Assembly: GCF_002995495.1 (NCBI RefSeq)
Contig: NZ_PVZV01000012.1
Location: forward strand, 124,001 to 188,000
Reading direction: 5' to 3'
Length of the DNA: 64,000 bases
Origin: Actinocorallia populi
Lineage (GTDB): Bacteria > Actinomycetota > Actinomycetes > Streptosporangiales > Streptosporangiaceae
Part shown: one piece after another, positions 36,538 through 52,155 of the stretch
Position numbering within the stretch: the first letter of the stretch is position 1
How the letters are laid out: every line of letters begins with the position of its first letter
Translations under genes and position numbers: made by a program
Notes under the pieces: generated by a model
The model's input: only the letters and a program-made list of their open reading frames with translations
The model's database searches: none
Told to the model about the DNA's origin: nothing

Positions 36538-36623
36538 GGGGACGTCCTCCTCAGGTGGGGCGGGGAGCGGGAGAGGTCTCAGTTCGCAGGGCGGGCGTCG
36601 TAGACGGCCGTCTCGTCCGAGAA

Positions 36624-36645
36624 AACTTTAGTGCGTGCTAATGTT
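36624..36645. promoter_or_regulatory. operator-like dyad between the monooxygenase and TetR genes
   Basis: The core TTAG-TGCGTG-CTAA (36628-36641) is flanked by matching AAC and GTT, giving 7 of 8 paired positions per arm. It sits in the divergent promoter region. Confidence 0.55.
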
Positions 36646-36716
36646 TGAAGGATGATGGAGCACGCGTCACACGGTTGTCAAGGGAGCGGGAACGAAAGGG
36701 GCGGCGGTGCGGAACA

Positions 36717-37403
36717 ATGCTCACCATGAGCGAAAGCCAGCCTCCGACCAGCGCTGATCTGCAGATCCGGCCGCCGCTGCAGGAGCGCAGCCGCCGGGTG
36801 TGGACGAGGATCCTGGACGCCGGAGTGGAGATCGTCGAAGAGGGCGGGTACGAGGCGTTCACCATCGCCGCGGTGTGCGAGCGCGCCGAAGTGGCGCCGC
36901 CGACCGTCTACGCCCGCGTCGACACCAAGGACGCCCTGTTCCTGGCCGTCTACGAGCACGGCATCGCCCGCGCCCGGGTCGATGAGGCCGTCTTCGCCGA
37001 CCACGGGCGCTGGACGGACCTGGAACCGGCACGGCTCGTCGGAGCGGTCGTCGCCGAGCTCGCCGGGATGTTCCAGCGCCATGCCCGCTTCCTCGGCGCC
37101 GTGGTGCTGATCTCCGGGGCCCACCCGGAGATCAAACGCCGCGGCTCCCACCACGCCCGCCGCATCGGTGAGGCGTTCACCGCCGTCCTCCTGCGCGCCG
37201 AGCGGCACATCACCCACCCCGACCCCCGCGCCGCAGCCCTGGCCTGTTACGAGACCCTCTTCTCCGCCCTCGTGCTGCGCACCGCCTACGGCCCCGGCTT
37301 CGCCATTCCCGCGACCACCGACCAGGCCTTCACCGACCACCTCGCCCAGACCGCCATCCGCTACCTGCTCGGAGACCAGACGGGCGCCTCTCCTTGGCCA
37401 TAG
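36717..37403 (+). CDS. TetR-family regulator divergent from the FAD monooxygenase
   Basis: 228 residues. DNA-binding domain: ILDAGVEIVEEGGYEAFTIA, AVCERAEVAPPTVYARVDTK, DALFLAVYEHG. ATG 36717 is used; ATG 36726 is also possible. A longer TTG start at 36645 would lie at the operator and is unlikely. Its ligand may be the aromatic substrate of the divergent enzyme (inference). Confidence 0.85.
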   Translation: MLTMSESQPPTSADLQIRPPLQERSRRVWTRILDAGVEIVEEGGYEAFTIAAVCERAEVAPPTVYARVDTKDALFLAVYEHGIARARVDEAVFADHGRWTDLEPARLVGAVVAELAGMFQRHARFLGAVVLISGAHPEIKRRGSHHARRIGEAFTAVLLRAERHITHPDPRAAALACYETLFSALVLRTAYGPGFAIPATTDQAFTDHLAQTAIRYLLGDQTGASPWP

Positions 37404-37415
37404 CCGGCTCGGCGG

Positions 37416-40289
37416 TCACGGAGAACCGGACGCCCTGGAACCGCCGGACGGCGGCGTACGCCGGGATCCGTCCCGGCGGCGGTGCAGATCGGCCAGCGCC
37501 CGCTCGATCGCGGTGAGCGCCGCCGGATCGGTGAAGAGCAGCGCCGTCCGCAGTGTCGAGCCCGCCTCGTAGCGGATCGCACCGCCGAAGGCGCGGGCCC
37601 GTCCCGGATCGTGCTCGGCCAGTATCGACCGGACGAGGCGGAGAGCCTCGGGGTCGTCGACGAGGTCGGCCAGATCGGTGTCGAGGCCGTGCTCGACGAC
37701 GGGCCGTGCCGCGGGGGTCCAGGGCAGGACCCAGCGGTGCCGGCCCGGGCCCGCGTCCGGTCGCGGACCGTCGGGCAGGACGACTTCGGCGGTCGTGTTC
37801 GGCGGCACGAGGGCCGAGACGGTGAGCGCGCCGTCCGCGACGGTCCACTCGACGCTCGCCCTCCCGTACGGTGTGGTCTGCTCGCTGCGGGCGTGCGACA
37901 GGCCGGTGAGCACCGTGGGGGAGACGCGGAGGCGCCGGTAGCCCGGCTCGGCGGGAGCCAGGCCGGCCAGGCCCCGGTGGAGCCAGTCCGCGACGGCGCC
38001 GAGGGCGTAGTGGTTGAACGAGGTCATCTCGTGGGGGTTGACCGAGCCGTCGGGAAGCAGCGCGTCCCAGCGCTCCCAGACCGTCGTCGCCCCGACGGTC
38101 ACCGGGTACAGCCAGGACGGCTCCTCGGTCTGCAGGAGCAGGCGCGCCGCGGCGTCCAGCCGTCCTGTGGCGCAGAGGGCGTCCATGATCAGGGGAGTCC
38201 CGACGAAACCCGTGCCGATGCGGTAGCCGTCCTCCCGGACGATCTCCGCGAGGCGCCGTCCCAGGGCCGCTCGGAGGTCCGGTTCGCGGGCGATGCCGAA
38301 CACGAGGGCCAGGGCGTACGTCGTCGGCCCTTCCGAGACCATCCGGCCGGCCGGTGTCACGTACGTCTGGAGGAACGCCAGCCGTGTCCGTTCCGCGAGC
38401 CCACCGTAGTGGCGGGCCAGTGCGGTGTCCCCGAGGATCCGCGCCGTGCGGGCGACGATGTCCAGGGACCGGAACAGGTAGGCGGACGCGACGAGGGACG
38501 GGTGCGTCCGCCCTTCCCTCGGCCGGTCCGCGGGGGCCTTGGGGTCGAGCCAGTCGCCGAGCTGGTAGCCGCGCGTCCACAGGCCGTCGGGGTCGGCGCA
38601 GGCCAGTTCGGCCTCCGCCCAGGCGCGCATGCTCGGGAACTGGCGGGACAGGAGGTCGATGTCGCCGAGGCGCTCGTAGAGCGTCCACGGGACGACGGTG
38701 GCGGCGTCCCCCCAGGCGGCCACGACGCCGTCGGTGTCCTCGGGCATGGCGCTCGGCACGACGAGCGGGGTGACCCCGCCGTGGCGCGCCTGCTCCAGGG
38801 CGAGGTCGGAGAGCCAGGACGCCAGGAAGGCGCCGCAGTCGTGCAGCGTGGCGGCCGTGCCCGCGAAGACCTGGAGGTCGCCGGTCCAGCCCAGCCGCTC
38901 GTCGCGTTGCGGGCAGTCCGTCGGGATCGACAGGAAGTTCCCGCGCATGCTCCACACGACGTTCTCGTGGAACCGGTCCAGCAGCGGCTCGGAGCTGGAG
39001 AACCGGCCGGTGCGGCGCAGGTCCGAGGAGCAGACGACGGCCGTGACGGACGACGGGTCGAAAGCGCCGGGCCAGTCGTCGATCTGGAGGTAGCGGAAGC
39101 CGTGGAAGGTGAAGCGTGGCTCCCACTCCTCGACGCCGCCGCCGCGCAGCGTGTAGGCGTCCACCGAGTGGGCCTGGCGGAGCTGGCGGGTGGCGAGCTC
39201 GCCGTTCTCCAGGACCTCCGCGTGTCGCAGCGTGACCGTGTGCCCTCGCGGGCCGTCCACCCGGATCCGCACCCGGCCCACGAGGTTCTGCCCGAAGTCC
39301 ACGAGGGTCTTGCCCGACGGCGAGCTCAGCACCGCGACCGGTGCGACCTCCCCGACCCGGCGGACGGGTTCGGCGCCCGCCGGACGCAGCAGCTCATGGG
39401 GGACGTCCCGGACGGCGACCGGCAGCCAGCCCTCCCCGCCGCCGCCCGGCGTGGACCACGCGGGATCGTGGCCCCTGGCGTCGAACCGCTCACCGGCGTA
39501 GACACCGCTGGAGAGCAGAGCGTCCGAAGGCCTGCAACGCCAGTCGGGAGAGGTCCCGACGACGGCATGACGCCCGTCCTCGTAGGTCACTTCCACCTGG
39601 GCCAGGACGGCGGCCGGGCCCTCGTAGGCGCGCCGGGCGCGGCCGAAGAAGCCGTAGCGCTCGGTGAACCAGCCACCCGCCAGCCAGATGCCGAGCGTGT
39701 TGCGGCAGGGGCGCACGAGCCCCGTGATGTCGTGGGTCTGGAAGAGCACCCGGTCCCGGTAGCTCGTCCAGCCGGGAGCCAGGACGTCGGATCCGACGCG
39801 CGCCCCGTTCAGCTCGGCCTCGTAGACCCCGAGCGCGGTCACGTGCAGGCGGGCGCGGACCACGCCCGGCCCCAGGTCGACGGTGTGCCGGAACTGTCCG
39901 GGCCTGTCGTCCGGTGTCCCGGCGGGCAGCGCCACCCAGCACGCCGACCAGTCGGACGCCTCCAGGAGCGGCGCCTCGACGTCGATCTCCGCCGGCTCGG
40001 AACGGACTCCGTCGGAACCCGTGGTCGACACCTGGAGGAGGACGCGTTCGCGGGAGCGCAGTGGACGGAACGGCCACGGGACGCACACCGAGTCGCCGCC
40101 GTCCAGATCGACGGTCTCCGTGCGACCGCCGTCATCCGGCCGGGTCAGGGTGAGCCGGGCGGACGCCTGCCGCCAGCCGGGAGCCGGGGTGTCCGTGCGC
40201 CACGACACGGCGGGCGCCGCGCCGTCCGTCCAGGACGCGCCGTCGCGTCGGCGGCCGGCGCGCAGGTCCGAGACCACGGCATGGGACAA
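37416..40289 (-). CDS. alpha-L-rhamnosidase, glycoside hydrolase family 78
   Basis: 957 residues. N-terminal beta-sandwich domains (about 1-420; LNGARVGSDVLAPGWTSYRD is typical) precede the (alpha/alpha)6 catalytic domain. The catalytic-acid segment is IPTDCPQRDERLGWTGDLQ (455-473) and the general base is Glu739 in ATTVWERWDAL. There is no signal peptide, so it acts on imported rhamnosides. The start is TTG 40289 with GGAGGTG five bases upstream. It is divergent from the ROK regulator over a shared operator. It would remove terminal rhamnose from compounds such as flavonoid rutinosides before further breakdown (inference). Confidence 0.92.
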   Translation of the reverse strand: MSHAVVSDLRAGRRRDGASWTDGAAPAVSWRTDTPAPGWRQASARLTLTRPDDGGRTETVDLDGGDSVCVPWPFRPLRSRERVLLQVSTTGSDGVRSEPAEIDVEAPLLEASDWSACWVALPAGTPDDRPGQFRHTVDLGPGVVRARLHVTALGVYEAELNGARVGSDVLAPGWTSYRDRVLFQTHDITGLVRPCRNTLGIWLAGGWFTERYGFFGRARRAYEGPAAVLAQVEVTYEDGRHAVVGTSPDWRCRPSDALLSSGVYAGERFDARGHDPAWSTPGGGGEGWLPVAVRDVPHELLRPAGAEPVRRVGEVAPVAVLSSPSGKTLVDFGQNLVGRVRIRVDGPRGHTVTLRHAEVLENGELATRQLRQAHSVDAYTLRGGGVEEWEPRFTFHGFRYLQIDDWPGAFDPSSVTAVVCSSDLRRTGRFSSSEPLLDRFHENVVWSMRGNFLSIPTDCPQRDERLGWTGDLQVFAGTAATLHDCGAFLASWLSDLALEQARHGGVTPLVVPSAMPEDTDGVVAAWGDAATVVPWTLYERLGDIDLLSRQFPSMRAWAEAELACADPDGLWTRGYQLGDWLDPKAPADRPREGRTHPSLVASAYLFRSLDIVARTARILGDTALARHYGGLAERTRLAFLQTYVTPAGRMVSEGPTTYALALVFGIAREPDLRAALGRRLAEIVREDGYRIGTGFVGTPLIMDALCATGRLDAAARLLLQTEEPSWLYPVTVGATTVWERWDALLPDGSVNPHEMTSFNHYALGAVADWLHRGLAGLAPAEPGYRRLRVSPTVLTGLSHARSEQTTPYGRASVEWTVADGALTVSALVPPNTTAEVVLPDGPRPDAGPGRHRWVLPWTPAARPVVEHGLDTDLADLVDDPEALRLVRSILAEHDPGRARAFGGAIRYEAGSTLRTALLFTDPAALTAIERALADLHRRRDGSRRTPPSGGSRASGSP

Positions 40290-40396
40290 GGGGACACCTC
40301 CGGGGAGCGATGCGCGGCACAGGCGTTTCGGCGGCAGGATGATGCCCGCCGGTGCGGCGCGTCCGCTGTCGCCTGCCGCGGCGAAGACCTAGCCTA

Positions 40397-40418
40397 ATGT
40401 TCCATTAGAACTTATGTC
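40397..40418. promoter_or_regulatory. putative ROK operator, site 1 (rhamnosidase/regulator promoter)
   Basis: A 22-bp site beginning ATGTTCCATT, with an inner GTTC-CATTA-GAAC dyad, is 18/22 identical to the site at 41716-41737. On the minus strand it falls between ATGACA (-35-like) and TAGGCT (-10-like) of the rhamnosidase promoter. Confidence 0.65.
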
Positions 40419-40442
40419 ATTCCCATACCCCCGGAGGTCGCG

Positions 40443-41705
40443 ATGAGCGGTTCGACTCCCTCGCCCCAGGAGGCTTTCATCCACGGGCGGCTGATCAACT
40501 TGGTGCGGACCGGCCGGGCGCTGACCCGGCCCGCGCTGGAGCAGGAGACGGGCCTGGGCCGCAAGATCGTCGCCCAGCGGGTCCAGCAGGCGATCGACGC
40601 CGGGCTGCTCGAGGACGCCGCCCTCGTCCCGTCCGGCGGGGGCCGCCCGTCCCGGCAGCTGCGCTTTCGCGCCGAGGCCGGGCACGTCTACGCCGGCGTC
40701 GTCGGGGCGACGGAGATGACCGCGGCGGTCGCCACGCTCGACGGCACGCTGGTCGCCTCGCTGCACGAGGACTGGGACGCCGCGGACCGCCCCGACGAGA
40801 CCATGGAGCTGCTGAACGGGCTGTTCGCCCGGCTCGCCCGCAGGACCCGCACCCTGCCGTGGGCCTTCGGGATCGGCGTCGCCGGACCGGTGGACTTCGC
40901 GACGGGCCGCCTCGTCGACCCGCCGATCATGCCGGGCTGGGACGGCTACAGCGTCCGCTCCTGGCTGCGCGACCGCTACGACGCGGCGGTCTGGGTCGAC
41001 AACGACGTGAACCTCATGGCCCTGGGCGAGTGGCACAAGGGGATTCCCCATGACGGCCGCGACCTGCTGTACGTGCTGGCGGACCAGGGCATCGGAGCGG
41101 GCCTGGTGTCCCGCGGGCTCGTCTTCCGCGGCGACACCGGCGCCGCGGGCGACATCGGGCACATCCAGGTCAGCCATTCCTCGGACGTCGTCTGCCGGTG
41201 CGGCCGCACCGGCTGCCTCGAGGCCCTCGCGGGGGGCTGGGGGATCATCCGGCAGGTCACCGAGCGGACGGGGGAGAGCCCCCGGCTGGCGGCGCGGCTC
41301 GCGCAGGAGGGCAGGCTCACCGCCCAGGACGTCGGCCTGGCCGCCGCCGCGGACGACCCGCTGGCCGTCGAGGTGGTGCTCCGGGCGACGCGCCTGCTGG
41401 GGCGGACCACGGCCAACCTGGTGAACTTCGTCAACCCCGGCACGGTGGTGCTGGGCGGCGGCGCGCTGCGCGTCGGGGACTGGGTGCTCGAGACGTTCGA
41501 GGACACCGTCCGCGCCGGCGTCGGCCGGCTCGCCGGGGGGAGGCTCGCGGTGCGGCCGGCCTCGCTGGACTTCAGGGAGGGGGTGACGGGAGCGGCGATC
41601 CTGGCGATCGAGCACCTGTTCGGCCCCTCCTCGGTCGGGCTCTGGATCGAGAACGGCTCGCCGGTCGGCCACGCGGCGCCTTTGCAGCGCCTGTCTCTGC
41701 TGTGA
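40443..41705 (+). CDS. ROK-family transcriptional regulator
   Basis: 420 residues. An N-terminal winged helix-turn-helix (GRLINLVRTGRALTRPALEQ, TGLGRKIVAQRVQQAIDAGL) is fused to a sugar-kinase-like ROK domain with GDIGHIQVSH and the zinc motif CRCGRTGCLEALAGG. The family (NagC/XylR) senses sugars or their phosphates. GGAGG precedes ATG 40443. The neighbours imply that its ligand is a glycoside-derived sugar and that it controls the rhamnosidase and the transporter operon through the repeated operator. Confidence 0.92.
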   Translation: MSGSTPSPQEAFIHGRLINLVRTGRALTRPALEQETGLGRKIVAQRVQQAIDAGLLEDAALVPSGGGRPSRQLRFRAEAGHVYAGVVGATEMTAAVATLDGTLVASLHEDWDAADRPDETMELLNGLFARLARRTRTLPWAFGIGVAGPVDFATGRLVDPPIMPGWDGYSVRSWLRDRYDAAVWVDNDVNLMALGEWHKGIPHDGRDLLYVLADQGIGAGLVSRGLVFRGDTGAAGDIGHIQVSHSSDVVCRCGRTGCLEALAGGWGIIRQVTERTGESPRLAARLAQEGRLTAQDVGLAAAADDPLAVEVVLRATRLLGRTTANLVNFVNPGTVVLGGGALRVGDWVLETFEDTVRAGVGRLAGGRLAVRPASLDFREGVTGAAILAIEHLFGPSSVGLWIENGSPVGHAAPLQRLSLL

Positions 41706-41708
41706 CCC

Positions 41709-41737
41709 TTGACATATGTTCCATTGGGACTAAAGTC
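41709..41737 (+). promoter_or_regulatory. transporter-operon promoter with ROK operator site 2 in the spacer
   Basis: A perfect -35 TTGACA (41709-41714), a 16-base spacer and TAAAGT (41731-41736) form a good sigma-70-type promoter. The 22-bp site 41716-41737 fills the spacer and -10, so binding would exclude RNA polymerase. Confidence 0.7.
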
Positions 41738-41868
41738 GGCGCAGGCGGGCCCGCCCCGCGGAGCTCTCCGGGTACTCCTGACCGGAACGGCCCTGCCCCG
41801 CCTCATCTCCGACCGGCGCCCGCACGGCGCCCGGGCCGACCACGGTCCTCAGTCCCCCTGGAGTGCAT

Positions 41869-43389
41869 ATGCGCAGGTCAATCGTCGCGGCCTCGGCCGC
41901 GGCCTTCCTCTTCGGCCTCTCCGCCTGCGGCGGCGGCTCGTCGTCGGCGGAAGGGAGCCAGACGCTCACCCTGGCCATCGTCACGCCGCCCACCTCGTTC
42001 GAGCCGGGCGCGATGGCCATGGGCGGTCCGGAGGACCACTACTACCAGGCGGTCTACGACACGCTGCTGGCGCTCGACGCCGCCGGCAAGCCGGCCGCCA
42101 ACGTCGCGACGGCATGGAGCTACGACCCCTCGAACACCAGGCTGAGCCTCACCCTGCGCGAAGACGTGACCTTCACGGACGGCACGAAGCTCGACGCGGC
42201 CGCGGTCAAGGCCAACCTCGAGCACGCCAAGAAGGGCACCGGAGAGGCGGCGAGCGCCCTGCGCGCCGTCGACGAGGTGAACGTCACCGATGCCGCCCAC
42301 GCCGAGATCGTGCTCAGCGCCCCGGACCCCTCGCTGGTCCCCAGCCTCGCCCGCAGCGCCGGCTACCTGGCCAGCCCGAAGGCCCTCGGCAGCCCGGAGA
42401 TCAAGACCGCCCCGGTCGGCAGCGGCCCCTACCGACTCGACAAGAGCCGCAGCACCTCCGGAGACGCCTACGTCTTCACCCGCAACGAGTCCTACTGGAA
42501 CAAGTCCGCCTACCCGTACGACCAGGTGGACATCAAGCACCTCGACAACACGACGGCGGCGATCAACGGTCTGCGCTCGGGCCAGATCCTCGGTGTCTCC
42601 GCCATCAGCAAGGACATCGTCCAGGGGGCGAAGCAGGCGGGCCTGACCGTCGCGACGTACGACAACGGGACCATCGAGGGCATCTTCCTGTGGGACCGGG
42701 CCGGTGAGAACACCAAGGCGCTCGGCGACCTCCGCGTCCGGCGGGCCATCAACCACGCGCTGGACCGGGAGACGATCGTCGAGAACGTCAAGGGCGGCCT
42801 CGCCACCCCCAGCGCGCAGATCTTCGCGCCGACCACGAGCGGCTACGACAAGGCCCTGGACGACGCCTACCCCTACGACGTCGCCAAGGCCAAGCGGCTC
42901 ATGGCCGAAGCGGGCTACGCCTCGGGCTTCACCCTGACCGTGGCCGACTTCTCGCCGGTCTACCCCGACGAGCAGGCCGCGATGACCGAGTCGCTCGCCG
43001 CCATCGGCATCAAGGTGAAGTACACCCCCATCACGGCCGACCAGGCGGTCGGCAGCATCATCGGCGGCAGGTGGCCGATCAACTACTTCAACCTCACGTC
43101 GAGCAACCCGTGGGCGTTCGCCCAGCTCACACTCGACCCGAAGGCGGCCTTCAACCCCTTCCACGTGACCGACCCGAAGGTCACCGAGCTGCTCGAGACG
43201 ATCCGCACCTCGGACTCCGCAGAACAGGACGCCGCCTACAAGCGGCTCAACGCCCACATCGTCGACCAGGCGTGGTTCGCGCCGTGGGCCTTCCAGCAGG
43301 GGGCCTACGCCCTCGGCAAGAGCGTCGAGGTGACCACGGTCCCCGGCGTCAGCGTCCCGCCGCTGTCCGGCTTCGCACCCGCAGCCTGA
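41869..43389 (+). CDS. ABC transporter solute-binding lipoprotein (SBP_bac_5, DppA/OppA type)
   Basis: 506 residues. Signal peptide with lipobox FLFGLSACGGGSS. The SBP_bac_5 fold is clear: YYQAVYDTLLALDAAGKPAA, NVATAWSYDP, LTLREDVTFTDGTKLDAAAV, and later RRAINHALDRETIVENVKGG. Although named for peptides, this family also binds opines, nickel complexes and oligosaccharides. Here the operon points to glycosides. ATG 41869 has GGAG six bases upstream. Confidence 0.92.
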   Translation: MRRSIVAASAAAFLFGLSACGGGSSSAEGSQTLTLAIVTPPTSFEPGAMAMGGPEDHYYQAVYDTLLALDAAGKPAANVATAWSYDPSNTRLSLTLREDVTFTDGTKLDAAAVKANLEHAKKGTGEAASALRAVDEVNVTDAAHAEIVLSAPDPSLVPSLARSAGYLASPKALGSPEIKTAPVGSGPYRLDKSRSTSGDAYVFTRNESYWNKSAYPYDQVDIKHLDNTTAAINGLRSGQILGVSAISKDIVQGAKQAGLTVATYDNGTIEGIFLWDRAGENTKALGDLRVRRAINHALDRETIVENVKGGLATPSAQIFAPTTSGYDKALDDAYPYDVAKAKRLMAEAGYASGFTLTVADFSPVYPDEQAAMTESLAAIGIKVKYTPITADQAVGSIIGGRWPINYFNLTSSNPWAFAQLTLDPKAAFNPFHVTDPKVTELLETIRTSDSAEQDAAYKRLNAHIVDQAWFAPWAFQQGAYALGKSVEVTTVPGVSVPPLSGFAPAA

Positions 43390-43461
43390 CCTTCGCCCGT
43401 GCCCCGCGGCCCACGGGCCGCGGGGCACGGCACGGCCGACCATCCGCCACGGAGCCGAACC

Positions 43462-44403
43462 ATGATCACTTTCCTGCTCCGCCGGCTCGCCGCCGGCGTC
43501 GTCCTGGTCTTCGTCATCGCGACGGCCACCTTCTTCCTCACCGGCCTGACCGGTTCCGACCCCGCGCAGCGGATCGCCGGAACCCAGGCCGGCGCCGCCC
43601 AGGTCGCCGCCAAGCGGCACGAACTCGGGCTGGACCGTCCGCTGGTCGAGCGGTACGCGGACTGGCTCGGCCACGCCGTCCGAGGCGACCTCGGAACCTC
43701 ATGGTTCACCAACCAGCCCGTCTCGCGCGTCGTGGGCGAGGCACTGCCGGTCTCCCTGTCCCTCGTGCTGGCCGCGATCCTGCTCACCGCCGCCGTGAGT
43801 ATCGTGCTCGGCGTGGCCGCCGCCGTCCGCGGCGGCTGGGCCGACCGGGTGCTGCAGGTGGTGTCCGTCGTCGCGTTCGCCGTCCCGAACTTCCTCGTGG
43901 GGATGATCCTCGCGCTCGTCTTCGCCGTCCAGCTCGGCCTGTTCCCGGCCATCGGGTACGTGAAGCCGAGCGTGGACCCCGCCGGTTGGCTGGCCTCCAT
44001 CACCCTGCCCGCACTGGCCCTGGCGATCGGCGCCATCGCCACCGTCGCCGCCCAGACCCGCGGCTCCATGATCGACGTCCTGCGGCAGGACTACATCCGG
44101 ACCCTGCGCAGCCGCGGACTGCCCGCCCGCAGCGTGCTGCTCAAGCACGCCCTGCGCAACGCCGCCCCCGCCTCCCTGACGGTCCTCTCGCTGCAGTTCA
44201 TCGCGCTCATCGGCGGCGCCGTCGTCATCGAGCAGGTCTTCGGCCTCACCGGGATCGGGGAGCGCGCCACGTCCGCCGCGAGCCAGGGCGACGTGCCGCT
44301 CGTCCTCGGCGTCGTCGTCGTGACGGTCGTCCTGGTCGTCATCGTCAACCTTTTGGCCGACGTCCTCCTCGGTTGGCTCAACCCGAAAGTGCGCATGTCA
44401 TGA
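43462..44403 (+). CDS. ABC transporter permease (DppB type)
   Basis: 313 residues with about six helices. Start MITFLLRRLAAGVVLVFVIA, periplasmic segment ELGLDRPLVERYADWLGHAV, and the EAA loop DYIRTLRSRGLPARSVLLKH are typical of the DppB family. Its TGA overlaps the ATG of the next gene. Confidence 0.92.
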   Translation: MITFLLRRLAAGVVLVFVIATATFFLTGLTGSDPAQRIAGTQAGAAQVAAKRHELGLDRPLVERYADWLGHAVRGDLGTSWFTNQPVSRVVGEALPVSLSLVLAAILLTAAVSIVLGVAAAVRGGWADRVLQVVSVVAFAVPNFLVGMILALVFAVQLGLFPAIGYVKPSVDPAGWLASITLPALALAIGAIATVAAQTRGSMIDVLRQDYIRTLRSRGLPARSVLLKHALRNAAPASLTVLSLQFIALIGGAVVIEQVFGLTGIGERATSAASQGDVPLVLGVVVVTVVLVVIVNLLADVLLGWLNPKVRMS

Positions 44404-46217
44404 GCGTCCCCAACGAACCGAACCCCGCCCACGGGCCCTCGGAGCCCGTCGCGCCGCGAGCGGGTGTCCTGCGCCGCCTTCTGCGCGACCCGCTCGCCGT
44501 GGCGGCCCTCGCCTACGTTGCGATCGTCGTCGTGGCGAGCGTGCTCGCACCGCTTCTGACGTCGCAGAGCCCCACGGCGTCCAAGATCGCCGACGCGCTG
44601 CTGCCCATGGGGGACGGCCACCCGCTCGGCACCGACGGAGTCGGACGCGACGTGCTCGCCCAGCTCCTCCACGGCGGGCGCACCAGCCTCACCGGGGCGC
44701 TCATCGTCGTCGCCGTGTCGCTGGCCGTGGGCCTGCCGGCCGGCATCGCGGCCGGGTACTACCGGGGCTGGTTCGACGGCGTGGCCGGCTGGCTGAGCAA
44801 CCTCGTCATGGCGCTGCCCGCCATCATCGTGCTGCTCGTCGTCCTGGCGCAGTGGGGCCGCAGCACCGGCCTCGCGATGGCCGTCTTCGGCCTGCTCATC
44901 GCGCCCGGCATCTTCCGGCTCATCAGGGCGTCCGTCGTCGCGGTCCGCGAGGAGCTCTACGTCGACGCCGCCCGCGTGTCCGGCCTGGGAGACGCCCGCA
45001 TCATGCGCCGGCACATCCTGCCCGTCGTCGTGGCGCCGACGGTGATCCAGGTGTCGCAGCTGCTGGGCATCGCGATCGTCCTCCAGGCGGGGCTGGAGTT
45101 CCTCGGGCTCGGCTCGGAGAACCAGGCCAGCTGGGGAGGCATGCTCAACGACGCCTTCGCCAACATCTACAGCGCGCCGCGACTGCTGCTCTGGCCGAGC
45201 CTGGCGATCGTGCTCACCGTCACCGCCTTCAGCCTCATCGGCAACGCCCTGCGGGACGCGCTCGGGGTCGGCGGGACCGCCGTCCACGTGCGTTCGCGGG
45301 CGGAGGCCGCGCCGTCCGGTCCCGTCGTGGCGGCTTCGCCGTCCCCGGCCGGTGAAGCGGACGAGAGCGATGAGGCGGACGTCCTCCTCGCCGTCGAGGA
45401 CCTGCACGTCGCCTATCCGCGGCCGGACGGCTCCCAGGCCGTCGTCGTGAAGGGGGCCTCGCTGTCCGTGCGCAAGGGCGAGATCCTCGGCCTCGTAGGG
45501 GAGTCCGGTTCGGGCAAGTCCCAGACCGCGTTCTCGGTGCTGGGCCTGCTCCCGCCCCTGGCCAGGACCTCCGCCGCCCGCATGGAGTTCGGCGGCCGGG
45601 ACCTGCGCGGCCTGTCCCCGGCGGCGATGAACCGGTTGCGCGGCAAGCGGATCGGCTACATCCCGCAGGAGCCGATGTCCAACCTCGACCCGTCGTTCCG
45701 GGTGGGCAACCAGCTCGTCGAGCCGATGCGGCACCACCTGGGCCTGTCCCGCAACGCGGCGCGCACCCGGGCGCTCGACCTGCTCGAGCGGGTCGGCGTC
45801 GCCGATCCGGAGCGCGTCTTCGCCTCCTACCCGCACCAGATCTCCGGCGGCATGGCGCAGCGCGTGCTCATCGCGGGCGCCATGTCATGCGACCCGGAAC
45901 TGCTCATCGCGGACGAGCCCACGACGGCGCTCGACGTGACCGTCCAGGCGGAGGTCCTCGACCTCATCCGCGAGCTCCAGGCCGAGCGGGGCATGGGCGT
46001 CATCCTCGTGACCCACGACTTCGGGGTCGTGGCCGACCTGTGCGACACGGTCGCCGTCATGCAGACCGGCCGCATCGTCGAGACGGCGCCGGCGGCGCGG
46101 CTGTTCGCCGAGCCGCAGCACGAGTACACCCGGATGCTCCTCGCGTCGACCCTCGACGACTGCGAACCCCGGGCCGCCCGCTCGCACCCCGTCCAGAACC
46201 TCGGAGGGACCCGATGA
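44400..46217 (+). CDS. fused ABC permease (DppC type) and ATP-binding protein (DppD type)
   Basis: 605 residues. Residues about 1-290 are a DppC-like permease (LLRDPLAVAALAYVAIVVVA; EAA loop ELYVDAARVSGLGDARIMRR). A Ser/Ala/Glu-rich linker (about 292-322) joins an ABC ATPase: Walker A GESGSGKS (from residue 367), signature ISGGMAQR, Walker B LLIADEPTTALD, and the C-terminal peptide-transporter extension. The fusion leaves one separate ATPase (next gene) to complete the heterodimer. Both ends overlap neighbours by ATGA. Confidence 0.92.
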   Translation: MSVPNEPNPAHGPSEPVAPRAGVLRRLLRDPLAVAALAYVAIVVVASVLAPLLTSQSPTASKIADALLPMGDGHPLGTDGVGRDVLAQLLHGGRTSLTGALIVVAVSLAVGLPAGIAAGYYRGWFDGVAGWLSNLVMALPAIIVLLVVLAQWGRSTGLAMAVFGLLIAPGIFRLIRASVVAVREELYVDAARVSGLGDARIMRRHILPVVVAPTVIQVSQLLGIAIVLQAGLEFLGLGSENQASWGGMLNDAFANIYSAPRLLLWPSLAIVLTVTAFSLIGNALRDALGVGGTAVHVRSRAEAAPSGPVVAASPSPAGEADESDEADVLLAVEDLHVAYPRPDGSQAVVVKGASLSVRKGEILGLVGESGSGKSQTAFSVLGLLPPLARTSAARMEFGGRDLRGLSPAAMNRLRGKRIGYIPQEPMSNLDPSFRVGNQLVEPMRHHLGLSRNAARTRALDLLERVGVADPERVFASYPHQISGGMAQRVLIAGAMSCDPELLIADEPTTALDVTVQAEVLDLIRELQAERGMGVILVTHDFGVVADLCDTVAVMQTGRIVETAPAARLFAEPQHEYTRMLLASTLDDCEPRAARSHPVQNLGGTR

Positions 46218-47056
46218 CCGGCATGAATCCGCTTCTCGAGGCCCGCGACGTCATCGTGGAATTCCCCGTCAAAGGCTGGCGGCGGCCGCCGTTCCGGGCG
46301 CTCAAGGGAGTGTCGCTCACCATCGACCCCGGAGAGACCCTCGGCCTCGTCGGAGAGTCGGGCTCGGGCAAGACGACGCTGGGCCGGGCCATCCTCGGGC
46401 TCGCTCCCGTCACCGGCGGCGACATCCGCTTCGCGGGCCGGACCGTCTCCGGGCTGGGCAAACGCGAACGGCGCGCGCTGAGCAAGGACATCCAGGTCGT
46501 CTTCCAGGACCCCTACACCTCGCTGAACCCCGCGATGACGGTCGGGGACATCCTCACCGAGCCCCTGCTCGTCGCCGGAACCAGCAGGGCGGACGCCGAG
46601 CGGCGGGTTCGCGGCCTCCTCGACGAGGTGCACCTTCCCGCCGACACGGCGCATCGGCTGCCGCGGGAGTTCTCCGGCGGGCAGCGGCAACGCCTGGCCA
46701 TCGCCCGCGCGCTGTCCCGCGACCCCAAGCTCATCGTCTGCGACGAACCGGTCAGCGCGCTCGACCTGTCCACCCAGGCGCGGGTCCTCGACCTGTTCAT
46801 CGAAATCCAGGAGCGCACCGGCGTCGCCTACCTGTTCGTGACGCACGACCTGTCGGTGGTCCGCCACATCAGCCACCGGGTCGCCGTCATGTACCGCGGG
46901 GAGATCGTCGAGGACGGTGACGCCGGCGTCGTCACCTCGGCCCCCGCGCACCCTTACACCCAGCGACTGCTCCTCGCGGCGCCGGTCCCCGACCCCGCCC
47001 GCCAGGCACAGCGCCGCGCCGAGCGCCACCGGTTCCTCGCCGAGCAGGCCGTCTAG
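46214..47056 (+). CDS. ABC transporter ATP-binding protein (DppF type)
   Basis: 280 residues. Walker A GESGSGKTT, Q-loop VFQDPYTSLNP, signature FSGGQRQR, Walker B LIVCDEPVSALD, H-loop THDLSVV. With the fused ATPase it gives the two nucleotide-binding sites of the importer. It overlaps the upstream stop by ATGA. After its stop 118 bases separate it from the oxidoreductase genes, with no strong terminator. Confidence 0.92.
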   Translation: MTGMNPLLEARDVIVEFPVKGWRRPPFRALKGVSLTIDPGETLGLVGESGSGKTTLGRAILGLAPVTGGDIRFAGRTVSGLGKRERRALSKDIQVVFQDPYTSLNPAMTVGDILTEPLLVAGTSRADAERRVRGLLDEVHLPADTAHRLPREFSGGQRQRLAIARALSRDPKLIVCDEPVSALDLSTQARVLDLFIEIQERTGVAYLFVTHDLSVVRHISHRVAVMYRGEIVEDGDAGVVTSAPAHPYTQRLLLAAPVPDPARQAQRRAERHRFLAEQAV

Positions 47057-47174
47057 GCGAGGGACGCCGGCCGACCCGACCGGGCTGATCCGGAACGAGA
47101 ACAGCGCACCAGGCCGTCGCCGATCCGCCACGGCCCGGGAATCGCATGCCCCAACACACGAAAGCGAGAAGGCC

Positions 47175-48254
47175 ATGGCCGATCGTCGACAAGCCGGCAT
47201 CATCGGCACGGGATTCATGGGAACCGTCCACGCCCGGGCGATCCGGCGCTCCGGCGGCACCGTCGCCCGGATCGTCGGCTCCACACCGCAGTCCTCGCGG
47301 GCCGGTGCGCGTCTCGTCGACGCCGAGCGGGTCACCGAGACCCTCGACGAGCTGCTCCAGGACTCCGCCATCGACGTCGTCCACGTCTGCACACCGAATA
47401 CCACCCACGGATCCCTGGTCCGGGAGGCCATCCGGCACGGCAAGCACGTGGTGTGCGAGAAGCCGCTCGCGGTCGACCCCGCCGAGGCCGAGGAGCTGGT
47501 GAATCTGGCGGCCGAGGCCGGGGTGACGGCGACGGTGCCGTTCGTCTACCGCTTCTACCCCACCGTCCGGGAGGCGCGGGCCCGGGTGGCCGACGGCAGC
47601 ACCGGGCCGGTGCGGTTGCTGCACGGCTCGTACCTGCAGGACTGGCTGGCCGGAGACACCGACGACAACTGGCGGGTCGACGCCGCGACCGGTGGTGCCT
47701 CACGGGCGTTCGCCGACATCGGCGTGCACTGGTGCGACCTGGTGGAGTTCGTCTCGGGCCACCGCATCACCCGGCTGACGGCGCGGACCGTCGTCGCCGT
47801 CCCGGAGCGCGGCGGACGCCCGGTGACGACCGAAGACGTCGCGGCCGTGCTGTTCGAGACCGACCGGGGCGCGTTCGGCACGGTGACCGTCAGCCAGATC
47901 AGCCCCGGGCGGAAGAACCGGCTGTGGTTGTCCGTCGACGGCGCCGACGAGAGCCTGTGCTTCGACCAGGAGAACCCCGATTCGCTGTGGATCGGCGGCC
48001 GCGACGTCAACCGGCAGCTGATGCGCGGCACCGGCGAGCACCCGTCCGCCGCCCGCTACGCGGTCGTGCCGTCCGGACATCCGCAGGGCTACCAGGACAG
48101 CTTCGACGCCTTCGTCGCCGACACCTACGCCGCCATCGCAGGCGAGGCCCCCGACGGACTGCCCACCTTCGCCGACGGCCTGCGCGCCGCGCGCATCACC
48201 CGAGCCGTCCTCGACTCCTCCCGTACTTCTGGCTGGGTCGAGGTGCCCGCGTGA
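47175..48254 (+). CDS. Gfo/Idh/MocA-family oxidoreductase
   Basis: 359 residues. NAD(P)-binding AGIIGTGFMGTVHARAI, the EKP motif HVVCEKPLAVDP, and the catalytic GGASRAFADIGVHWCDLVEF segment. Members oxidise or reduce sugar hydroxyls, including C3 of glucosides. In this operon it may reduce the free 3-keto sugar after cleavage or serve as an alternative 3-dehydrogenase (inference). GAGAAGG precedes ATG 47175. Confidence 0.9.
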   Translation: MADRRQAGIIGTGFMGTVHARAIRRSGGTVARIVGSTPQSSRAGARLVDAERVTETLDELLQDSAIDVVHVCTPNTTHGSLVREAIRHGKHVVCEKPLAVDPAEAEELVNLAAEAGVTATVPFVYRFYPTVREARARVADGSTGPVRLLHGSYLQDWLAGDTDDNWRVDAATGGASRAFADIGVHWCDLVEFVSGHRITRLTARTVVAVPERGGRPVTTEDVAAVLFETDRGAFGTVTVSQISPGRKNRLWLSVDGADESLCFDQENPDSLWIGGRDVNRQLMRGTGEHPSAARYAVVPSGHPQGYQDSFDAFVADTYAAIAGEAPDGLPTFADGLRAARITRAVLDSSRTSGWVEVPA

Positions 48255-48295
48255 CCCCGGCCGGCCGTTCCCACCAGACAAGGACTACCACCCCC

Positions 48296-49837
48296 ATGAC
48301 CCGGACGTTCCCCGACACCGTCGACGTGGCCATCGTCGGCAGCGGACCCTGCGGCGCGGCGTACGCACGCATCCTCAGCGAGCGCTGCCCGGACGCGACC
48401 GTGGCGGCCTTCGAGGTCGGGCCGCTGCTGGCCGACCCGCCCGGCGTGCACGTGAAGAACATCGCAGACCCCGACGAGCGGGCGCTCGCACAGCGCCGCT
48501 CGGAGGGCCCGGCACCGCTCGCCGCGGACACCTCCACCGACACGATGGACGGGTACGCCGACGAGTCGTTCCGGCTGGTCCGTCCCGGGACCTTCCTGCT
48601 CGCCACCGGATACCGGCAGCCGGGGGAGGACGGGCTCCCCGGCGCCGCGATGTCCAGCAACGTCGGGGGGATGGGAGCGCACTGGACCGGCGCCTGCCCG
48701 CGTCCCGGCGACAGCGAGCGCATCGCCTTCCTGCCCGACCTCGACGAACTCCTCGCCGAGGGGGAGCGGCTGCTGTCCGTCGACACGCACGCCTTCGACG
48801 ACGCTCCCTTCGCCGACGAGGTGCGCAAGCGGCTGAGCACCGCGCTCGACGCGGGGCGCGAGGAGGACCGCAGGGTCGCGCCGATGCCGCTGGCGGTCGT
48901 CCGGCACGACGACGGCAGGGTCACCTGGTCCGGGTCCGATGTCGTCTTCGGTGACGTCACGCGCGCCAACCCGAACTTCACTCTCATCCCGGAGGCGCTC
49001 GTCACCGAGGTCGTCATCACGGACGGCCGGGCCGCGGGCGTGCGGGTCCGCGACATGGGCAGCGGCGGCGAGCACACCGTCCGCGCCAGGTTCGTCGTCG
49101 TCGCGGCCGACTCCCTGCGCACCCCCCAGTTGCTGTGGGCCTCCGGCGTCCGCCCCCGCGCCCTCGGCAGGTACCTCAACGACCAGCCCCAGACGGTCTT
49201 CGCCGTCCGGCTGCGCGACGTCGAGCCGGGGCCCGACGAGCAGGCCGTCCCGCGCGACCGGCCGGAGATCGTGCGGCACAGCGGTGTGAACTGGGTGCCC
49301 TACACCGACGAGGAGCCGTTCCACGGGCAGGTCATGCAGCTCGACGCGAGCCCGGTGCCGTTGGCCGCCGACGACGTGCCGGTACCGGGGTCCATCGTCG
49401 GCCTGGGCTGGTTCTGCGCCAAGGACCTCCAGGAATCCGACCGCGTCGAGTTCGACGACGAGACCGACCCGTACGGCATGCCGGCCATGCGCATCCACTA
49501 CCGCCTGACCGAGCGCGACCGCACATCGATCGAGGCCTCCCGGGCCGCCGTCCGCCGGGCCGCCGAGGCGCTCGGCGACCCCCTGGACGACGAGCCGCTG
49601 ACGTTCCCGCCCGGCGCTTCACTGCACTACCAGGGCACCGTCCGGATGGGGGCGGCCGACGACGGCACGTCGGTGTGCTCGCCCGACTCGCAGGTCTGGG
49701 GCGTCGACGGGCTCTACGTCGCCGGCAACGGAGTCATCCCGACCGCCACCGCCTGCAACCCCACCCTCACCGCGGTCGGCCTCGCCGTCGGCGGTGCCCG
49801 CCACATCGCCGCCAAGCTCACCACCGAGAGGAACTGA
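48296..49837 (+). CDS. GMC-superfamily sugar oxidase, pyranose 2-oxidase/C-glycoside 3-oxidase (CarA) type
   Basis: 513 residues. FAD-binding VDVAIVGSGPCGAAYARIL (9-27). NVGGMGAHWTGACPRP (122-137) matches the loop whose histidine carries FAD covalently in fungal pyranose 2-oxidase; His129 is conserved. The catalytic pair is His444 (ASLHYQGTVRMG) and Asn488 (ACNPTLTAVG). Bacterial members such as CarA and G3Ox oxidise the 3-hydroxyl of the sugar in C- and O-glucosides with O2. That creates the 3-oxo-glycoside that CarBC-type enzymes need. Four bases separate it from the deglycosidase fusion. The substrate is inferred from context. Confidence 0.85.
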   Translation: MTRTFPDTVDVAIVGSGPCGAAYARILSERCPDATVAAFEVGPLLADPPGVHVKNIADPDERALAQRRSEGPAPLAADTSTDTMDGYADESFRLVRPGTFLLATGYRQPGEDGLPGAAMSSNVGGMGAHWTGACPRPGDSERIAFLPDLDELLAEGERLLSVDTHAFDDAPFADEVRKRLSTALDAGREEDRRVAPMPLAVVRHDDGRVTWSGSDVVFGDVTRANPNFTLIPEALVTEVVITDGRAAGVRVRDMGSGGEHTVRARFVVVAADSLRTPQLLWASGVRPRALGRYLNDQPQTVFAVRLRDVEPGPDEQAVPRDRPEIVRHSGVNWVPYTDEEPFHGQVMQLDASPVPLAADDVPVPGSIVGLGWFCAKDLQESDRVEFDDETDPYGMPAMRIHYRLTERDRTSIEASRAAVRRAAEALGDPLDDEPLTFPPGASLHYQGTVRMGAADDGTSVCSPDSQVWGVDGLYVAGNGVIPTATACNPTLTAVGLAVGGARHIAAKLTTERN

Positions 49838-49841
49838 CGAC

Positions 49842-51137
49842 ATGCTCGACTTCCCCATCATCCAAGGCAGGGGCTTCCGCAACGTCGTCGAGGGCGGCCG
49901 GGTGACCGGCTTCGCCTTCCAGCTGCGCAACCCGAACTACCGCGGGTTCGCGGCCAGCCTGCTCGACGGCGTCGAGGTGCTCGTCGACGGAGAACGCATC
50001 CCCGACCACGTGCCGCTGTGGACGCTGCAGGGGCGCACCTTCACCCTCGAGGAGCTGCGGGCCTCCACCGACGTGCGGTGGCAGCTGGACGAGCCGGCGA
50101 CGATCACCGTGCCCAGGCCGGGCGGCCTCTCGGCCGGGGTCCACGAGCTCGAGGCCGTCGTCCAGCTGCGCCGGTCGTACTTCCCGCCGCTCGTCGCGCG
50201 CACGCCGTTCACCGCGTCGGCCAAGGCCGTGATCGTCCCCCCGGCGCCCGCCGGCGGGCTGCGCTTCGGCGTGTCCACCTACAGCTACTCCGGCGACGTC
50301 CACACCTCGATGACCCTCGAGGACGTCTTCGCCGACATCGCCGACCTCGGCGCCGACGGCATCGAGATCCTCGGCGAGGGCAACATCCCGGGCTACCCGT
50401 CGCCCGATTCCGCCTGGATCGACGGGTGGCACGGACTGCTGGAGAAGTACGGGCTGACGGCCACCAACTACGGCTCCTGGGTCGACACCACGAGATGGCG
50501 GGACCGCGACCTCACCGTCGAGGAGGGAGCGGCGCAGATCCAGCTCGACCTCCGGCTCGCCGCGCGGCTGGGCTTCACCTCGGTGCGGCCGAAGTTCGGC
50601 GTCACCTCCTGGGACCTGGACCCCCACCCGATCTGGGAGGAGGCCGTCGAGCGCTCCCTGGACCTCGCGGCGGAGCTCGACGTCGTCATCTGCCCGGAGA
50701 TCCACGCCCCCACGCCGATCAAGCACCCCGTCACCCAGGGGTACCTCGAGTTCATCGAGCGCACCGGCAGCGAGCACTTCAAGCTGCTGATCGACACCGG
50801 CATCTTCCAGACCGAGCCGGTCCGCGACTACGCCGAGGAGATCGACGTGGAGGAGGGCGAGGAGGTGCCGGCGCACCTGCGGCCGCTCGCCGTGCCGATG
50901 GCCGACCTGGTCGAGGTGCTGCCGCACGTGCACTTCATCCAGGCCAAGTTCTTCGACATCGACGACCGGCTCCACGACCGGCACGTCCCCTGGGACGAGA
51001 TCATCACGACCCTGCGGACCGCGGGCTGGTCGGGCTGGCTGTCCAGCGAGTACGAGGGCGTGCGCGCGCCCGGCCGCGGCCGCGACCAGGTCCGCCGCCA
51101 GCACGCCCTGCTGCGCACGCTCTGCGCGGGGCGGTGA
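49842..51137 (+). CDS. C-glycoside deglycosidase beta-subunit domain (DUF6379) fused to a sugar-isomerase-like TIM barrel
   Basis: 431 residues. Residues about 1-125 ([51 protein letters not shown]) match the small beta-sandwich CarC/DgpC subunit of C-glycoside deglycosidases. A short linker leads to an AP_endonuc_2-type TIM barrel (about 140-427). Its candidate metal ligands are Glu286 (CPEIHAP), Asp318 (LLIDTG) and Glu403 (SSEYEG). Normally the beta subunit is a separate polypeptide of about 130 residues bound to an alpha-subunit barrel. The alpha-like gene starts 7 bases downstream. The fusion could tether two barrels or couple cleavage to isomerisation. Confidence 0.82.
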
Positions 51138-51144
51138 GCGCCCG

Positions 51145-52155
51145 ATGACGCGCCCGATCACGCTCTTCACCGGCCAGTGGGCAGACCTGCCGTTCGAGGA
51201 GGTCGCCCGCCTCGCCTCGTCCTGGGGATACGACGGGCTCGAGATCGCCTGCTGGGGCGACCACCTCGACCCCGACCGCGGCGCCGTGGACGACGCCTAC
51301 CTCGACGGGAAGCGCGCCGTACTGGACAGGTACGGGCTGAAGGTCTTCGCGATCTCCAACCACCTCAAGGGCCAGGCGGTCTGCGACGACCCGATCGACG
51401 GCCGGCACCGCGCCATGCTGCCGGACTCGGTCTGGGGCGACGGCGACCCCGAAGGGGTGCGGCGGCGGGCCGCGGAGGAGATGAAGAACACCGCCCGCAC
51501 CGCCGCCCGGCTCGGCGTGGACACCGTCGTCGGCTTCACCGGTTCGGCCATCTGGAAGTACGTGGCGATGTTCCCCCCGGTCACCCAGGAGGTCATCGAC
51601 GCCGGCTACCGGGACTTCGCCGACCGGTGGAACCCGATCCTCGACGTCTTCGACGAGGTCGGCGTCCGCTTCGCGCACGAGGTCCACCCCTCAGAGATCG
51701 CCTACGACCACTGGACGACCCGGCGCGCACTGGAGGCGATCGGCCACCGCGAGGCGTTCGGCCTGAACTGGGACCCCAGCCACATGATGTGGCAGGACCT
51801 GGACCCGGCCGGCTTCATCCTCGACTTCGCCGAACGCATCTACCACGTCGACTGCAAGGACGTGAAGCTCGCCGTCGGCAACGGCCGCAACGGCCGCCTC
51901 GGCTCCCATCTGGCCTGGGCCGACCTGAACCGCGGCTGGGACTTCGTCTCGACCGGCCACGGCGACGTCCCCTGGGAGCGCTGCTTCCGCGCACTGAACT
52001 CGATCGGCTACAAGGGCCCCATCTCGATCGAGTGGGAGGACGCCGGCATGGACCGTCTCGTCGGCGCCCCCGACGCACTGCGGTTCGTACGCGGCAAGCT
52101 CTTCGACGCCCCGGCGGCCGCCTTCGACGCGGCCTTCAGAACCGGCGCGCAATAA
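51145..52155 (+). CDS. C-glycoside deglycosidase alpha-subunit-like (CarB/DgpB) TIM-barrel protein
   Basis: 336 residues, AP_endonuc_2 fold. Characteristic segments: [32 protein letters not shown], and [18 protein letters not shown]. Probable metal ligands are Glu179 (FAHEVHPSE), Asp210 (NWDPSHMMW), His234 (YHVDCKD) and Glu296 (ISIEWED). This pattern fits the sugar phosphate isomerase/epimerase branch that includes the alpha subunits of C-glycoside deglycosidases. Those cleave the C-C or C-O bond of 3-oxo-glycosides with a divalent metal. A plain sugar isomerase cannot be excluded. Confidence 0.82.

Follow-up and report, generated by a model that had tools for sequence, protein, structure and literature searches.

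The window analysed here, a 64,000-nucleotide stretch of the Actinocorallia populi genome (contig NZ_PVZV01000012.1, positions 124,001 to 188,000), contains at 37416-52155 a real, well-conserved regulon that is built of known enzyme kinds and whose novelty lies in their combination and control. We consider it likely that this is an inducible regulon for the uptake and dismantling of decorated plant glycosides. The sequence-based part of this reading consists of the gene identities, the conserved core, the shared predicted operators and the recurring link to a rhamnosidase; we infer the activities, substrates, inducer and order of steps.

In the proposed pathway, a Dpp-type importer would bring in the intact rhamnosylated glycoside and a ROK-family regulator, released by a sugar ligand, would open two promoters. 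A cytoplasmic glycoside hydrolase of family 78 (GH78) would take off the outer rhamnose, a flavin adenine dinucleotide (FAD)-dependent oxidase would oxidise the inner glucose at C3 with formation of hydrogen peroxide, and a fused C-glycoside deglycosidase (CGD) would eliminate the C- or O-linked aglycone from the 3-keto glycoside to leave 2-hydroxy-3-keto-glucal, which a second TIM barrel (a candidate hydratase, HYD) may hydrate to 3-keto-glucose and a Gfo/Idh/MocA enzyme (Gfo) may reduce to glucose. Trimming should follow import, because the binding protein of the importer is a lipoprotein and no signal peptide was seen by eye on the four pathway enzymes or on GH78, which is predicted to be cytoplasmic. 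On family knowledge, the substrates are probably rhamnosylated C- or O-glucosides, for example C-glycosyl flavones with O-linked rhamnose.

Conserved gene order and predicted control

All of the genes named in an earlier, sequence-only reading of this DNA are present with the domains and coordinates claimed. Pfam identified GH78 domains, ROK, SBP_bac_5, BPD_transp_1, ABC_tran, GFO_IDH_MocA, GMC_oxred (N and C), PF19906 CGDB and AP_endonuc_2 in ten genes, the same reading frames were chosen by a gene caller based on codon-position guanine-plus-cytosine (GC) content, and the GH78 gene is indeed divergent from the ROK gene. The proposed Dpp-type importer is supported by its SBP_bac_5, BPD_transp_1 and ABC_tran domains, with DppC and DppD in one gene. 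Describing the genes as mostly overlapping was too strong, as four-base overlaps occur at DppB/DppCD and DppCD/DppF only and the remaining gaps measure 4-163 bases. The locus has a GC content of 72.5% (71.3% in the rest of the window) and carries no compositional sign of recent import.

The fused CGD is rare among near relatives, with matches in two of 60, its own genome and one with weak homologues (6e-25), and two genomes of the same genus gave no CGD match; at class level it is present in five of 394 genomes at 1e-40, own included. A scan of named genomes yielded 119 relatives, the best 80 of which were used as CGD loci. Six named genomes share the gene order ROK-SBP-DppB-DppCD-DppF-Gfo-GMC-CGD, with protein identities of 58-87%: Streptomyces humidus (L015), Geodermatophilaceae URHA0031 (L016), Blastococcus tunisiensis (L017), Geodermatophilus aquaeductus (L018), Klenkia terrae (L019) and K. 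soli (L020). The only other window genes matched at 1e-15 in the flanks of these loci (10 kb around CGD, plus 14-19 kb stretches that surround or precede ROK or GH78) are GH78, HYD in S. humidus, a monooxygenase and TetR pair in K. soli, and two MFS transporters (28-30%). A plasmid search returned eight records, one a full-length fused relative (Arthrobacter, 53.6%) and another the megaplasmid of Novosphingobium PP1Y.

The ROK switch proposed earlier is likewise supported by the sequence: the protein combines its ROK domain with a CxCGxxGCxE zinc motif at residue 251 and a helix-turn-helix-like N-terminal region recognised by eye only, and a conserved near-palindrome occurs at its own and its target promoters. 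In all seven loci the ROK-SBP intergenic region contains TTGACATAWGTKCCNNNGGNNCTAAAGTC, which resembles a sigma-70 promoter and has the near-palindrome between its hexamers. With a weight matrix trained on these sites, the tested locus being left out each time, a second operator copy was found 27-36 bases ahead of ROK in 7/7 loci, at scores reached by none of 400 dinucleotide shuffles at any locus; in the window it lies 27 bases ahead of the ROK start and 107 bases from the GH78 start. When a pattern was built from the two window sites, and hence fitted to them, its only two occurrences in the 8.25-Mb genome at up to two mismatches were those at the locus (reversed control, 0). Upstream of the displaced GH78 gene of S. 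humidus there are two operators of 22.2 and 24.7 bits, neither in the training set, one of them with the 107-base spacing seen in the window. Elsewhere in the 2.03 Mb of fetched sequence, beyond the operon and GH78 loci, the matrix found only three further places at 14-16 bits. The ROK regulator is predicted to bind these operators. The two S. humidus sites (L132:11474-12087) are 136 bases apart and lack an intervening ROK gene, which might reflect loss of the regulator or relocation of the block.

The rhamnosidase and its link to the operon

Five GH78-type Pfam domains of the rhamnosidase score above their cut-offs, and the protein has DCPQRDERLGWTGD and TTVWERWD motifs, which we take to have roles in GH78. 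Its gene apparently starts with TTG at 40289 behind GGAGGTG, where the S. humidus orthologue has ATG, and its best solved relatives are 6gsz and 3w5m. The claim that a rhamnosidase belongs to the locus is strengthened by orthologues, replacement by family GH106, phylogeny and the predicted operators. GH78 orthologues of 69-82% identity are found in four of the six operon relatives, divergent from ROK in three, and the top identity listed in the 393 other sampled genomes of the class is 56% (matches at 1e-200, no more than two candidates being scored in each genome). The two relatives without an orthologue, URHA0031 (two other GH78s of 51% and 42%) and B. tunisiensis (none at 1e-20), have a GH106 rhamnosidase downstream of CGD on the same strand, the sole GH106 detected in each genome; none was found in the other four relatives, and the window genome has two weak ones. 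According to the available text of PMC10653915, most characterised members of GH78 and GH106 are alpha-L-rhamnosidases. In a phylogenetic tree of 29 GH78 sequences (one, L092, a 204-aa fragment) the operon GH78s group together in a clade (support 1.000), apart from the window genome's five other GH78s, and the sister of this clade (1.000) is a Microbacterium aerolatum GH78 within an importer-GH78-fused CGD series.

Among the 80 fused-CGD loci, GH78 is near six and GH106 near ten (including M. trichothecenolyticum, L056), compared with about 0.49 and 0.15 expected by chance in 1.60 Mb, a weak comparison that carries no P value because the loci are interrelated and several matches are cut by flank ends. 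For GH78 the expectation derives from 36 matches (fragments included) across 18 genomes of ~117.9 Mb, and for GH106 from four genes in seven genomes. The two families never occur at the same locus, which means little by itself. With one or the other near 16 of the 80 loci, a rhamnosidase link unique to this window was rejected; the earlier remark that the combination looks unusual is thereby weakened, as it also is by the fusion of the CGD subunits being known from solved structures. Further genes carried among the 80 loci comprise GH43 (19 loci), GH35/42-like (nine) and BD-FAE esterase (six), many of the GH43 and some of the esterase matches being weak (29-39% identity), with Pfam run on the S. 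humidus and URHA0031 examples only.

Enzymes of the proposed oxidation-elimination core

The oxidase had been described as CarA-like, and this is supported by full-length matches to 7dve and 7qf8, far above those to pyranose 2-oxidases, and by clade IV motifs. We take 7dve, listed under a paromomycin-oxidase name, to be MtCarA, and 7qf8 is presumably PsG3Ox. The window enzyme has AHW from residue 128 and LDASPVPLAADD from residue 349, one residue off the end of the consensus, and its catalytic H444 and N488 and its K54, R96 and Q299 align with H440, N484, K55, R94 and Q297 of PsG3Ox. In its available part, PMC10807413 gives (G/A)AHW and LDASPVPL(A/G)(D/E)DD as clade IV motifs, names H440, N484, K55, R94 and Q297 in PsPOx, and describes PsPOx as active on C-glycosides and, among the O-glycosides fraxin, naringin, salicin and rutin, only with fraxin. 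The GMC protein is predicted from these features to be a clade IV CarA-type C-glycoside 3-oxidase.

The proposed deglycosidase is also recognisable, with both CGD subunits already in one open reading frame (ORF): the domain first called DUF6379 is PF19906 CGDB, the beta domain, and it is fused to an AP_endonuc_2 alpha barrel. The protein matches 8qrz nearly end to end, and a Foldseek search with its AlphaFold model (mean pLDDT 87.6) ranks 8un2 and 8qrz at the top (51-52% identity), both titled Microbacterium testaceum C-glucosyl deglycosidase. Because these entries rank first, the beta-alpha fusion is a known form, and its status as a new one was rejected. Glu286, His288, Asp318 and Glu403 are invariant in 81/81 fused CGDs (80 loci and the window), the roles of catalytic His and of Glu/Asp/Glu metal ligands being transferred by strand order from the available text of PMC10628242. 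The window CGD is predicted to cleave 3-keto C-glycosides.

Several variants of the CGD arrangement were observed elsewhere. Loci L021-L027 have a fused CGD near two tandem GMC oxidases (43-54% identity) and three of them (L021, L022 and L025) have additional split CGD genes upstream, suggesting several paired specificities per cluster. Four Microbacterium/Agromyces loci (L047:11313-12788, L056:11326-12807, L083:11353-12879 and L091:11342-12817) have a second CGD-like paralogue of 491-508 aa and 24-26% identity after the fused CGD. On Novosphingobium plasmids (L152:20001-21276, L153:15001-16382) the CGD is split, with the alpha gene, 55% identical to the window barrel, preceding the beta gene, so that their order is opposite to that in the fusion. 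L013 and L014 proved to be TIM-barrel ORFs that lack the fusion.

The last TIM barrel of the locus had wrongly been taken for an alpha subunit and is hydratase-like, of the SCO6571/AtHYD type. Neither its solved sequence matches (threshold 0.001) nor the 50 fold matches listed for it include a CGD alpha subunit. The best sequence match is 2zds (SCO6571, function unassigned, 68-69% identity), followed by 8ro4, which is AtHYD, at 134 bits, with the next match at 23 bits (4.6e-4), and the two structures fill Foldseek ranks 1-4 for its model (AtHYD 9.1e-17). A copy of HYD is present in 10/10 fused-CGD genomes searched, own included, at 76-90% in the nine others. Gfo matches levoglucosan dehydrogenase best among NCBIfam models (155.6 bits, cut-off 650), and its best solved matches carry generic names. 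We assign the hydratase and reductase roles on account of the AtHYD match and the pathway in PMC10628242, the available part of which describes a route of oxidation, elimination, hydration and then reduction and offers preliminary evidence that AtHYD is a hydratase and the Gfo enzyme a reductase. The second barrel would accordingly be named a putative 2-hydroxy-3-keto-glucal hydratase and Gfo, by analogy, a candidate terminal 3-keto-glucose reductase. The window genome has a second HYD copy (79%; L127:17316-19642, L128:2-4577; contig C4, ~77-85 kb) on the same strand as, and next to, a ROK gene (38-39%), and diverging from it are genes for an importer that includes a Peripla_BP_4 protein and for a further Gfo enzyme; this is possibly a second 3-keto-sugar locus.

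Genes and predicted sites of the locus and its neighbours (window positions)
Feature	Position	Strand	Evidence
GH78 alpha-L-rhamnosidase, 957 aa, TTG start	37416..40289	-	Pfam Bac_rhamnosid6H 4e-110; four more GH78-type domains also above cut-off
Predicted ROK operator 1, between GH78 and ROK	40396..40415	+	Leave-one-out matrix 10.6 bits; reached by 0/400 shuffles
ROK-family transcriptional regulator	40443..41705	+	Pfam ROK 8e-46
Predicted importer promoter TTGACA-N16-TAAAGT, operator 2 in spacer	41709..41737	+	Conserved in 7/7 loci
Lipoprotein solute-binding protein (SBP_bac_5)	41869..43389	+	Pfam 3.5e-60; lipobox LSAC by eye
DppB-type permease	43462..44403	+	Pfam BPD_transp_1 1e-35
Fused DppC permease - DppD ATPase	44400..46217	+	BPD_transp_1 and ABC_tran in single 605-aa ORF (Pfam)
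DppF-type ATPase	46214..47056	+	Pfam ABC_tran 2.2e-33
Gfo/Idh/MocA oxidoreductase, putative 3-keto-glucose reductase	47175..48254	+	Pfam 4.3e-29
FAD-dependent glycoside 3-oxidase (predicted), clade IV CarA/PsG3Ox type	48296..49837	+	7dve 2.4e-215, 7qf8 3.3e-212
Beta-alpha fused C-glycoside deglycosidase (CGDB and TIM barrel)	49842..51137	+	Pfam; 8qrz 2.1e-138; Foldseek 8un2/8qrz TM 0.92
2-Hydroxy-3-keto-glucal hydratase-like TIM barrel (SCO6571/AtHYD type)	51145..52155	+	2zds 9.5e-163, 8ro4 6.4e-38
Aromatic-hydroxylase-like FAD monooxygenase, neighbour	35299..36537	-	FAD_binding_3 6.2e-24; 6-hydroxynicotinate 3-monooxygenase 2.4e-35
TetR regulator divergent from the monooxygenase	36717..37403	+	TetR_N 3.3e-11

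The neighbouring monooxygenase and TetR genes have orthologues of 65% and ~54% at the K. soli locus, and the operator matrix found no site in their region (35299-37403). The monooxygenase may, speculatively, serve the aglycone.

Substrates, alternatives and known systems

Several observations weigh against a pathway for rhamnosylated glycosides. Opp/Dpp-type importers carry many kinds of substrate, so that family alone does not prove glycoside import. The position of the fourth metal ligand, a His in the split CGDs 7bvs, 8qvc and 9m3b, is Gln367 in 81/81 fused CGDs; we read it as a mark of a subtype because 8qrz, which has the Gln, is itself titled a CGD. HYD is only ~26% identical to AtHYD, its model is of medium confidence (mean pLDDT 75.1), and it is non-adjacent in five of the six relatives, each with a copy elsewhere (76-80%), adjacency being limited to S. 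humidus. Neither GH78 nor GH106 was found inside the fetched flanks (10 kb, or as far as the contig end) of 64 of the 80 fused-CGD loci or of 13 of the 18 closest (L015-L032), five of which have one; the S. humidus GH78 lies on another contig, unlinked to its operon; and no rhamnosidase was found within 20 kb of the split CGD on the Novosphingobium PP1Y megaplasmid or within 15 kb of that in Novosphingobium ES2-1. The PP1Y GH106 acts on flavonoid glycosides, as the available part of PMC10653915 states.

The physiological substrates could instead be ordinary O-glycosides such as rutinosides and neohesperidosides, the system serving non-hydrolytic O-deglycosylation with C-C cleavage incidental, a less favoured though serious alternative. 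Rhamnosyl-glucose is a common O-linked unit, and the best structural relative of the window GH78, 6gsz, is titled alpha-L-rhamnosidase and is presumably a fungal enzyme active on flavonoids. A CGD is moreover described as cleaving both 3-keto O- and C-glucosides in the available text of PMC10628242. Against this, clade IV oxidases favour C-glycosides and PsPOx is listed as active, of the four O-glycosides, with fraxin only (PMC10807413, available part), and Pfam names the beta domain after C-glycoside deglycosidases; this is not decisive, because prior removal of rhamnose would answer the objection from rutin and naringin. The loci lacking a nearby rhamnosidase and the S. humidus displacement also fit a GH78 of separate function that shares the divergent promoter by chance with an operon for plain glucosides, as does the frequency of GH78 homologues in actinomycetes (57/394 genomes at 1e-200, own included). 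We regard such a coincidence as very improbable, as the displaced gene retains two predicted operators, GH106 replaces GH78 in two relatives, and the GH78s of the operons group in a separate clade whose sister comes from a Microbacterium CGD operon. The second TIM barrel might be an epimerase/isomerase or a second lyase, given its low identity to AtHYD and the functional diversity of AP_endonuc_2 barrels; this is unlikely, since AtHYD is its sole strong solved relative after 2zds and a copy accompanies every fused CGD in the genomes searched.

Within the preferred reading of a decorated-glycoside regulon, we tentatively propose, at somewhat less than even confidence, that the ROK operon defines a system by which actinomycetes specifically handle O-rhamnosylated C-glycosyl flavonoids (such as 2''-O-rhamnosyl vitexin types). 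In it, a trimming module with exchangeable parts (GH78 or GH106, with GH43, a GH35/42-like enzyme and an esterase in relatives) would supply one oxidation-elimination core with C-glycosides of diverse decoration. The wide occurrence of C-glycoside-cleaving enzymes despite scarce substrates is raised as an open question in the available text of PMC10628242; a trimming module, if real, would help explain why such enzymes are widespread in soil although bare C-glycosides are scarce. The core enzymes are of known kinds, and their combination in one regulon with import, rhamnose trimming and a predicted operator hints at decorated glycosides as the natural substrates of CGD-type enzymes. The locus also points to specific substrates, promoters and enzymes, and to a subgroup of single-chain deglycosidases that could serve enzyme work on rhamnosylated flavonoids.

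We found no description of a rhamnosidase and a CGD in one operon in the literature searched, which mostly excluded subscription papers, so that a prior description is possible. The gut bacterium Catenibacillus decagia likewise carries genes for flavonoid rhamnosidases and for CGDs in its genome and uses flavonoid rhamnosides, but, unlike for the window locus, no shared operon or regulator is described in the available part of PMC11170127. The window GH78 has the same complete domain set as the alpha-L-rhamnosidases 6gsz and 3w5m and differs in that its position and the predicted operators it shares tie it to a 3-oxidation pathway. The oxidase resembles the clade IV enzymes CarA and PsG3Ox (7dve, 7qf8) in length, AHW flavin motif, LDASPVPLA substrate loop and catalytic His/Asn, but sits in an operon with a rhamnosidase, an importer and a ROK regulator. 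The CGD shares its beta-alpha fusion and the Gln at the metal-ligand position with the M. testaceum enzyme (8qrz, 8un2) and its subgroup comprises 18 loci at 70-84% identity, which come from Streptomyces, Geodermatophilaceae, Actinomadura and Actinoallomurus. Compared with the glycoside operon of Agrobacterium tumefaciens (GlycDH, AtOGE, AtHYD, Gfo) and the gut DgpABC/DfgABCDE systems, the locus follows the same four-step logic with hydratase- and Gfo-type partners, but relies on a CarA-like FAD oxidase of the GMC type for the oxidation and has the importer, GH78 and ROK in one regulon.

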